In this document: piece after piece, positions 25,493 through 27,186 of the stretch
Layout: every line of letters begins with the position of its first letter
How positions within the stretch are numbered: position 1 is the stretch's first letter
IMG/VR virus record: IMGVR_UViG_3300037258_000773
Coordinates: 1 to 37,478 of that record
DNA: 37,478 bases
Direction: 5' to 3' (one strand)
From: a virus
Translations under genes and position numbers: made by a program
The notes under the pieces: generated by a model
Told to the model about the DNA's origin: nothing
Seen by the model: the letters and a program-made list of their open reading frames with translations, nothing else
Databases searched by the model: none

Positions 25493-25771
25493 ATGACAGT
25501 ATCAATCGCATCGTTGCCACCGCAAATTCAACAGCGGTACAACGCAAAATTACTGTCCACTCCAGAGCACAACCTGATTCATCAGTTATTTGCCACACCC
25601 GTGGAATTGCCTGATAATCAAGGTTTCATCGACAGACAGTCTCGTTATGACAGACTGGACCTGTTTGAAGTGCCTTTGGACGATGGACAAAACAACCCAC
25701 CTCCTCAGCAGCTTAACCGCGTTGACGTGGATAATGACCTGTGGTCCACATGGGATGAATACGCGGCATAA
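25493..25771 (+). CDS. Major capsid protein, exon 1 (intron-split gene)
   Basis: This is the N-terminal part of an N4-gp56/P22-like major capsid protein: IASLPPQIQQRYNAKLLSTP, a loop FIDRQSRYDRLDLFEVPLDD, then PPPQQLNRVDVDNDLWSTWD. The frame stops at TAA 25769 in the middle of a conserved strand (WDEYAA), and the rest of the protein resumes 770 bases later in exon 2. The exon is expected to end at T25760 or T25769; in the first case U56-U60 pairs with GUUCG at 25781-25785 as a group I P1 helix with the required U-G pair. The SD is AGGGAAC. Without splicing, only a useless 92-aa peptide would be made. Confidence 0.88.
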   Translation: MTVSIASLPPQIQQRYNAKLLSTPEHNLIHQLFATPVELPDNQGFIDRQSRYDRLDLFEVPLDDGQNNPPPQQLNRVDVDNDLWSTWDEYAA

Positions 25772-26524
25772 ATGTGCAGGGTTCGCGTATACGCCACTTA
25801 TATCGTTTTAACGAGACAAGTGACGATAACCAACGAGGATAGAATTGTGTCCTCGGTAAATCTACTCTGATTGACTTGGAACCCCTAACGGATAAGACGA
25901 GGGCGACAGGGCGGAAGGATTTATAAGTTTGTGAATATTGATAGAGGATAAAAGACGATGACATTCGCAGCGAGCATAAAATTGTTCGGCAGTGAGTTTG
26001 GATCTAATTACCCCTTTTTCTGGGAGAAAATAGGTCTTTCTCATTCTCAACATGATTTCGCAATGATGTTTTTTTATTCTCAAATAAGGAAGAAGGCTAG
26101 GAAGCAATTTATCCAAGCACTCTCCAGTTACATTAGCTTCGTAAACTGTTCGGCGATTGAGGTGTTTTCTTTTTTTAGAAACTACTTTTTCCCAATAATG
26201 GATGCCCAAAAATTCTTGAAGCCATTTCATAATGGATTCATCAACCGAGGCAAATTTAAGAACTGTTCTATGTACGACAGGATAAAAACCTGTTTTAGCT
26301 TTGACGGTATCGATGTAAAAGCACCCATCTCCGTCGATGTAACCAGCGAGATAAGCAAAGTTAAATTCTTCCATAATAACTCCTTTACTACAGTATACAT
26401 AGATGTAGAATATAGATCTACCGTAAACGACTAAGTGAGTGGACTCCGGAAGGAGATGCGATAGTCTGATCTCATGGGAGACTATGAGAGGGAGATCCGA
26501 AGAGGTTTCCCCGCCTAGAAATAG
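25761..26524 (+). mobile_element. Group I intron in the major capsid gene
   Basis: The core can be drawn by hand: P1 (TGAAT/GTTCG), two stem-loops (CACTT..AAGTG at 25795-25823 with TCGTT/AACGA inside; CGAGGA/TCCTCG at about 25833-25855), P3 (CTACTC 25862-25867 with GAGTGG 26437-26442), the GGAACCCCUAACGGA block for P4-P6 (about 25880), P7 (GACTA 26429-26433 with TAGTC 26462-26466), P8 (CTCC-GGAA-GGAG 26444-26455). The S region GATAGTCTG resembles that of the T4 td intron. The last base is probably G26524. A LAGLIDADG gene lies antisense within it. Splice sites are my estimate; the core is well supported. Confidence 0.85.
25862..26374 (-). CDS. LAGLIDADG homing endonuclease, antisense inside the intron
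   Basis: The 170-aa protein starts MEEFNFAYLAGYIDGDGCFY: one LAGLIDADG helix with its catalytic acid (D in GDG), so it should work as a homodimer like I-CreI. Later blocks fit that family: GFYPVVHRTVLKFASVDESI, WLQEFLGIHYWEKV, then LLPSLLPYLRIKKHHCEIML. The start has GTAAAGGAGTTATT on the minus strand, so it is read opposite to the capsid message and independently of splicing. Its last 20 or so codons (NPSALSPSSYPLGVPSQSE) cover P3-P6 of the intron on the other strand, and its stop falls exactly at the P3 strand. It would cut intronless capsid genes and spread the intron. Confidence 0.93.
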   Translation of the reverse strand: MEEFNFAYLAGYIDGDGCFYIDTVKAKTGFYPVVHRTVLKFASVDESIMKWLQEFLGIHYWEKVVSKKRKHLNRRTVYEANVTGECLDKLLPSLLPYLRIKKHHCEIMLRMRKTYFLPEKGVIRSKLTAEQFYARCECHRLLSSINIHKLINPSALSPSSYPLGVPSQSE

Positions 26525-27186
26525 GTCATAAAAGTAACAGTGTGCCAGTTCTTAATAGCGCCGCGGCTCGCCTCGGACAAAGTTTAAGAGAAACTCAGGA
26601 CGCTCTCCAAAGAGACAATTTGGAAAGTTCTGGTTCCATTATCAATTGTGTAGGGGGAACTGATGGCGATATTCCCACTGAGATGACTATCACAGATGTG
26701 GATGACGTCTTCACTGTTCTTCAGAACAATAGCGGTGAGTACATAACAAATATCGTAGAAGCCGAACTGCGTTTCGGAACATCACCAATAGGCGATGCAT
26801 ACGGTTGTATGTTAACTACTCGCATGATTCCTGTTCTGTACAACATGACTGGTTTCATCAAGAAATTCCAATATCCGAACATCTCCCAAACGCTGACTAC
26901 GGAAATTGGCGGAGCTAATAACATCCGCTTCTTTGCTTCTGAACAGGGTTCTGTCTCTCCTAATGCTTCAATGCTTGGAAATGACATTGCTAACTGTTTC
27001 GTATCAGCTAAAGAGGCATACAAAGTTGTTTGGCAAGCAGGTGGTAAAGCTCGCTTTATCTATTTGCCTCCTGGTTACAACAACGATCCCTGCATGCTAC
27101 GGCATACAGCAGGTTGTTCGTTCTACCAAGGTCAATGCATCACAAATGACCTCTGGCTCCAAAATTTACGCTCAACAGGAATATAA
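26525..27186 (+). CDS. Major capsid protein, exon 2
   Basis: The reading resumes with VPVLNSAAARLGQSLRETQD and ALQRDNLESSGSIINCVGG, the conserved central block of N4-gp56-type coat proteins, followed by TDVDDVFTVLQNNSGEYITN, GDAYGCMLTTRMIPVL, GSVSPNASMLGND and the ending YQGQCITNDLWLQNLRS. GTG 26542 has no ribosome binding site and is not a start. The exon probably begins at 26525, adding HKSNS before VPVLN if joined to a T. The spliced protein would be about 310 aa, somewhat short for the family, with the HK97-like fold expected. AGGAGG after its stop starts the next gene. Confidence 0.88.

Follow-up and report, generated by a model that had tools for sequence, protein, structure and literature searches.

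How can a phage make one intact major capsid protein from a gene that is interrupted twice, when only one of the two interruptions has a recognizable ribozyme core? Here, we describe such a locus in a viral DNA of 37,478 nucleotides (IMG/VR record IMGVR_UViG_3300037258_000773), referred to below as the window. From comparative sequence analysis, we consider it likely that the locus is a major capsid gene interrupted by two introns that are served by one group I ribozyme. It is also fairly likely that the first intron belongs to a class of satellite mini-introns of about 40 nt, which would consist of nothing more than a guide to the splice sites plus a degradation tag, and be removed by the next intron's ribozyme in a fixed order. 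The argument draws on exon boundaries, P1 and P10 pairings, a single core, obligate co-occurrence, core covariation, and the enrichment and transfer of an Ala-Ala-stop (AA-stop) ending. The gene is divided as follows.

25493..25732, plus strand: exon A of the capsid gene, 80 codons ending ...VDVD (GTGGAT up to the splice site), from tblastn and alignment to intronless relatives, mostly at 95-100% amino acid identity.
25733..25774, plus strand: apparent mini-intron, 42 nt, coreless, with an in-frame TAA; missing from 78 distinct intronless exon A/B sequences, with 22 related inserts found.
25775..25840, plus strand: exon B of the capsid gene, CRVRVYATYIVLTRQVTITNED, 22/22 residues the same as in intronless relatives.
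25841..26544, plus strand: main group I intron (site A), 704 nt, with boundaries from intronless relatives, P1, P10 and the core, and omega-G at 26544.
26545..27186, plus strand: exon C of the capsid gene, from a match to the phrog_1357 major head protein (3.9e-14) and from relatives.

Intronless capsid genes of ~95% protein identity read ...VDVD-CRVRVYATYIVLTRQVTITNED-PVLNSAA... without interruption, and both inserts break this conserved reading frame at boundaries that the intronless relatives define exactly. One set of these relatives comprised 59 uninterrupted loci, and another 78 distinct exon A/B sequences. The comparison identifies 25775-25840 as exon and places the start of the main intron at 25841. 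The first ORF of the capsid region ends at 25771 because it reads into the 42-nt insert; an intron boundary at this ORF end, with P1 options there, was dropped after the same comparison. A weak test of co-conversion of exon B with the intron, based on third-position identity, gave no clear signal. For an exon-internal hairpin, overall pairing is the same in mini-intron-bearing and intronless genes (p 0.70), two third positions covary in the mini-intron-bearing genes only (p 0.010 vs 0.73), and these genes have a somewhat more stable exon B (p 0.003).

Among the relatives, the capsid gene is a hot spot that group I introns have entered at about a dozen points (L085 2900-5700 minus, L082 5198-7306, L098 5512-8206), near codons 80, 87, 96, 102, 103, 116, 139, 222, 264, 279-282, 286 and 300-301. 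Two insertion points are only 3 nt apart, and the L085 gene carries a mini-intron and three full introns. Downstream capsid introns (L085 3823-4440 and 3011-3640, both minus; the 3' introns of L084 and L072) contain ORFs on the sense strand whose CxxC and HHxDYSK...CxxCH patterns resemble those of HNH or zinc-finger endonucleases; a Pfam search of these ORFs gave no usable match.

By its sequence, the 704-nt element is a conventional mobile group I intron with P1, P10, a P3-P8 core and omega-G, and it presumably splices. Its elements are listed here.

25835..25840 with 25849-25854, plus strand: P1, exon strand GAGGAU and guide strand GUCCUC, from the sequence of related introns.
25841-25847 with 26546-26552, plus strand: P10, 7 bp with exon C, read directly from the sequence.
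25861..25867 with 26437-26443, plus strand: P3, 5' and 3' strands, 5/7 pairs compensated over 17 introns.
25875-25878 with 25907-25910, plus strand: P4, from the 17-intron alignment.
25882-25886 with 25900-25904, plus strand: P5, from the 17-intron alignment.
25911-25914 with 26421-26424, plus strand: P6, from the 17-intron alignment.
26418..26540, plus strand: 3' core, including P7 (26429-26433 with 26462-26466), P8 (26444-26447 with 26452-26455) and P9 helices.

An alignment of 17 site-A introns (A2) supports P1, P3, P4, P5, P6, P7, P8 and the P3/P7 pseudoknot, with 99.2% of cells paired and 14/35 pairs changed on both sides. The core covariation score is 0.413; shuffles gave 0.135 and did not reach it in 500 trials, and slid controls gave 0.081 at most. 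All 17 introns have U at the 5' exon end paired with G in P1, and the main intron thus combines the features that define group I: U.G in P1, a core of P3/P7, P4-P6 and P8, a final G and a P10. A covariance model of the 3' core (R1) gave a single match in the window, at 135 bits. Rfam searches at gathering and relaxed thresholds yielded no group I match for this intron family. The proven intron of mycobacteriophage LittleE scores only 30.7 bits against the general model RF00028, below gathering, and a match to this model is not itself a defining feature of group I introns; evidence for the core was taken from covariation and the family's own covariance model in place of Rfam. RF00028 misses the family even in members of ~200 nt without an insert (L082 6720-7260, L193 5560-6230). 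The last ~100 nt of the L085 site-A intron contain a tandemly duplicated hairpin unit, GGACCGAAAATAGGAAATATTTTAATCATTTCGG, in the P9 region.

The 42-nt insert, which reads from exon A as NDLWSTWDEYAA-stop, has guide pairings at both of its edges.

25727..25732, plus strand: mini-intron P1, exon strand GUGGAU, closed by U.G at the splice site; fully paired (6/6) in 20/20 homologues.
25744..25749, plus strand: mini-intron P1, guide strand GUCCAC, from homologue comparison.
25738..25743, plus strand: mini-intron P10, guide strand CCUGUG, pairing with exon B 25775-25780 (UGCAGG).

The P10 strand lies directly 5' of the P1 guide, and the insert ends in G. Across the 20 homologues, P1 occurs in two exon/guide versions (GTGGAT/GTCCAC and GTCGAT/GTCGAC), and P10 has a mean of 4.8 bp vs 1.13 (maximum 2.0) in 2000 loop shuffles. 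Compared with intronless exons the P10 gain is modest, 4.8 against 4.4 overall, since the conserved protein sequence already determines most of the complement; inserts beside the rare exon codons TGCAGG or TGTAGG form 4-6 bp with the exon they adjoin, against 2.3-3.3 when other exons are substituted. U is present at the splice site in 20/20 mini-intron-bearing exons vs 47/78 intronless exons (p 0.0003). A total of 22 mini-introns of 38-59 nt were found at two sites (20 here and 2 at a second site), and since several are not multiples of 3 in length, exact removal would be needed to make the capsid protein. The second site, in two capsid genes (L191, L194) whose protein is ~41% identical to that of the window, is judged from sequence to be independent of site A. 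Its 39-nt insert lies some codons further on, with a 7-bp P1 (GAUUGGU/GCCAAUC) containing U.G, a P10 to ACGG(U) and a final G, and reads ...RANLLAA-stop in the exon frame. With P1 and its U.G, P10 and a final G present, and no catalytic core of its own detected by model R1, the mini-intron looks like a group I splicing substrate rather than an autonomous group I intron.

The mini-intron P1 could instead define an alternative 5' splice site, used together with the 3' splice site of the main intron, so that exon B is skipped in frame and a capsid variant results. Exons A and C do share phase, and a single core could accept two P1 hairpins, but we consider this unlikely: the mini-intron P10 pairs with the start of exon B and not with exon C, the insert has its own final G, and an exon B conserved at 22/22 residues would be lost.

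Removal of the mini-intron as a separate intron raises the matter of which core acts on it. Each of the 22 mini-introns is followed, on the same transcript, by a complete group I intron. In the window, 66 bases (exon B) lie between the mini-intron 3' end and the main intron, and model R1 finds one core for the two introns. A mini-intron is present in 0/78 of the distinct intronless exon A/B sequences. Three site-A introns without a mini-intron (L190, L195, L200) were found by a scan that was independent of the insert, and partner introns free of a homing endonuclease gene (HEG; L085, L086, L110, L193) keep the mini-intron. From this distribution, the core of the downstream neighbor probably removes both introns.

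A possible connection between the two is a P2-like helix, formed in most homologues, and in constant register, between the end of exon B and the sequence that follows the mini-intron P1. At both sites, this helix ends beside the P1 of the next intron; the canonical group I order is P1-P2-P2.1-P3. Examples are UUAGUGAUC/GAUCACUAA, UUAGUAAUG/CAUUACUAA and UUUGUGAUG/CAUCACAAA at site A, and UCUUGCAG/CUGCAAGA at the second site. The helix has a mean of 8.0 vs 5.1 for shuffled tails, and a modest gain over intronless exons (7.4 against 6.5 of 8). In L193, exon B is split by another intron and the helix would form across it. The helix is 5 bp in L101 and only 3 bp in the window copy, where docking would therefore need another contact, and this short pairing is where the argument for that copy is weakest. 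A literature search that left most subscription journals outside its scope found nothing relevant on shared cores or coreless introns, and no precedent was found for a single group I core that serves two introns, the first of which has its 3' splice site before the core.

Because docking of a group I P1 is a tertiary interaction that can work in trans, the mini-intron might be spliced by the cores of other transcripts or by another factor, with the neighboring intron acting as a partner in mobility only. We find this improbable, as the P2-like helix ends at the next intron's P1 at both sites and the mini-intron occurs obligately with a core on the same transcript.

Removal at the RNA level could also be dispensed with if ribosomes skipped the 42-nt insert by translational bypassing and the main intron alone were spliced. 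The resemblance is to phage T4 gene 60, where a bypassed insert of ~50 nt interrupts a gene that neighbors a homing endonuclease; the window likewise has a short insert with an in-frame stop, hairpins and a homing endonuclease gene nearby. Bypassing is nevertheless very unlikely, since the take-off and landing codons are unmatched (GAT before the insert; ATG, TTG, GTG or AGG at its end), the inserts are found only beside group I cores, and bypassing requires neither the constant U.G, the final G nor the meeting of P1 and P10 exactly at the exon edges.

The main intron encodes one further feature on the opposite strand.

25862..26374, minus strand: LAGLIDADG homing endonuclease gene, 170 codons, in the P6 loop; 25937-26374 encodes the part predicted to fold, with a predicted disordered tail lying opposite P6-P3.

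A sequence-only reading of this DNA had proposed a LAGLIDADG gene antisense in a capsid group I intron, and the analysis bears this out: the 170-amino-acid ORF matches Pfam LAGLIDADG_1 (3.2e-9), contains the motif YIDGDGCFYI, belongs to a family whose profile matches I-MsoI and I-CreI in the PDB, and gives an AlphaFold2 model that matches the I-CreI/I-MsoI fold. By motif and predicted fold, the product is a single-motif LAGLIDADG endonuclease, predicted to cleave the intronless site. The same reading correctly gave the gene its own minus-strand Shine-Dalgarno sequence (AAAGGAG just 5' of the ATG; such a motif occurs in 16/19 related genes) and placed its stop on P3, where plus-strand CTA at 25862-25864 falls within the 5' strand at 25861-25867. 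Its estimate that the last 20 or so codons are antisense to the core is about right, the overlap being codons 154-170 and the stop (25861-25914). The intron class, antisense gene, P3 stop and P3-P6 tail overlap thus stand, but the idea that the same bases must serve both a folded protein and the ribozyme does not. In the AlphaFold2 model, residues 1-146 (25937-26374) fold and lie entirely inside the P6 loop, while residues 152-170, opposite the core, have pLDDT <50; the C-terminal tail is also missing from related endonucleases that stop earlier (L188, L086, L028). Because the tail is disordered and absent from some relatives, its sequence appears to be dictated by the RNA and tolerated by the protein, and from these fold limits and shorter relatives the overlap appears to be a family-wide habit of the antisense frame and not a strong dual constraint.

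Antisense LAGLIDADG genes of 142-181 amino acids occur in 16/22 delimited site-A introns, most ending at intron nt 17-55, a recurrence that argues against chance. The intron can persist without the antisense gene, given the four HEG-free versions of the site-A intron named above (L085, L086, L110, L193). In L101/L013, the antisense frame of the site-A intron looks broken (longest ORF 119 amino acids), with the intron and mini-intron seemingly intact. A 158-codon sense-strand open frame without a family match lies opposite the endonuclease (25958-26434, plus), and several relatives likewise have long sense frames there.

The sequence-only reading took the antisense endonuclease as the unusual feature and its transcript as a regulator of capsid RNA splicing; it included neither the mini-intron nor the tag. 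The gene has a Shine-Dalgarno sequence and, in most relatives, a recurring -10-like box (TATAMT/MATACT-like, ~23-33 nt upstream of the start), and the P3-P6 overlap is family-wide. Such a switch is highly doubtful in view of an overlap limited to a disordered, dispensable tail, the existence of HEG-free introns, and a consensus promoter scan of the minus strand that found no promoter.

The stop codon in the mini-intron is part of a wider pattern. AA-stop in the exon frame is found in 48/65 distinct intron entries, and in 0/130 cases in the other two frames. By class, it occurs in 18/19 mini-introns, with L110 being the mini-intron without it, in 32/35 full introns at other sites, and in 35/38 of all full introns without an upstream mini-intron. 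Site-A introns scored without a mini-intron have it in 3/4 cases and site-A introns directly downstream of a mini-intron in 0/17 (Fisher 6e-11); the fourth of the 3/4 is L105, a contig that starts inside exon A so that its mini-intron is unscored, and the corrected counts are 3/3 and 0/18. The Ala codons are of 3/4 types at the last position and 4/4 types at the preceding one, a variety that suggests selection on the protein. Several tails closely copy tmRNA tags (DYYALAA, DNYAIAA, TYDYALAA), and at the level of protein sequence the C-terminal Ala-Ala at the stop corresponds to an ssrA-like degron. The proven LittleE intron reads ...WNSVATAAA-stop in the exon frame. The T4 td and nrdB introns, taken as controls, have no AA-stop, and the tag is thus not shared by introns in general; the T4 47-54 kb and Twort 1-30 kb regions contained no annotated intron. 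The ...ATAAA-stop of LittleE (L202, 340-1760) may mean that the tag extends beyond this phage group. Capsid fragments translated before splicing would, we infer, become targets of ClpXP-type proteases, and the mini-intron probably acquired the tag from its partner intron at the time it arose. The literature search, again with most subscription journals outside its scope, found no description of an intron-encoded degradation tag.

A split capsid gene, in which ribosomes would terminate at the TAA and reinitiate at the ATG that ends the insert, yielding two polypeptides, has in its favor the window sequence TAAATG followed by TGC and an NTG in frame with exon B at the end of nearly all site-A inserts, but it is the least probable of the alternatives because the second-site NTG (L191, L194) is out of frame with exon B, many inserts have a stop downstream of the NTG within exon B, exons A and B remain intact parts of one conserved protein, and P1, P10 and the link to a core are left unexplained.

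Under the favored reading of satellite mini-introns, both introns would be spliced by the single core in the main intron, with the mini-intron leaving first. Its P1 would dock in the downstream core, connected to it, in most relatives, by the P2-like helix as the equivalent of P2 and by the main P1 hairpin as the equivalent of P2.1. Excision of the mini-intron would remove the P2-like helix, whereupon the main P1 would dock and the main intron be excised. This order would matter because the main intron, if it left first, would strand the mini-intron. Translation of unspliced RNA would run to the stop after the ssrA-like Ala-Ala tail and lead to ClpXP-type destruction of the capsid fragments, sparing capsid assembly from poisoning, and the mini-intron would bear this tag in place of the intron on which it depends. 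The antisense LAGLIDADG endonuclease in the P6 loop would serve mobility by mobilizing the unit.

If true, a coreless group I mini-intron of 38-59 nt would add a dependent kind of intron to those known, and one group I ribozyme could process two introns in order. The intron-encoded tag would be a new answer to the problem that bacterial translation precedes intron splicing, as truncated capsid subunits from unspliced RNA could poison assembly. Small inserts that break the reading frame of other phage genes may likewise be coreless introns, invisible to intron finders that seek a core. In the literature covered, we could not find an earlier description of either the mini-intron/shared-core organization or the intron-encoded tag.

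Among known systems, mycobacteriophage LittleE has a proven group I intron in its major capsid gene with a LAGLIDADG gene on the bottom strand, and its virions contain one full-length capsid protein (PMC3706429). The bottom-strand endonuclease of LittleE (JF937101) is in Pfam family LAGLIDADG_3. LittleE and the window share a capsid gene location, an antisense LAGLIDADG gene, a P1 with U.G and a frame ending ...ATAAA-stop in LittleE, but the phage and host are unrelated, the endonuclease gene is elsewhere in the intron, and the available text of the report (PMC3706429) describes neither a mini-intron nor a tag. An antisense endonuclease gene in a phage capsid intron is therefore an already-known arrangement and not novel by itself. 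Nuclear rDNA group I introns carry antisense His-Cys homing endonuclease genes (PMC9548176). Like the window, these systems have an endonuclease opposite the ribozyme, but in eukaryotic rDNA and from another endonuclease family. I-CreI and I-MsoI resemble the window endonuclease in sequence profile and predicted fold, at ~20% identity, and are encoded on the sense strand in organelle introns. The T4 gene 60 element lacks a group I P1/P10, and the window insert lacks a take-off/landing match. Trans-splicing, split and twin-ribozyme introns are likewise unusual in the arrangement of their parts, but have a core per intron or one core assembled from pieces, whereas the coreless intron of the window would borrow the core of its neighbor. 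Finally, tmRNA (ssrA) tags have the same endings as tails such as DYALAA, NYAIAA and ELAA, and the tmRNA of the Acidobacteria MAG that contains L188 ends FLQAA; unlike these tags, that of the window is encoded in an intron and would be read by normal translation.
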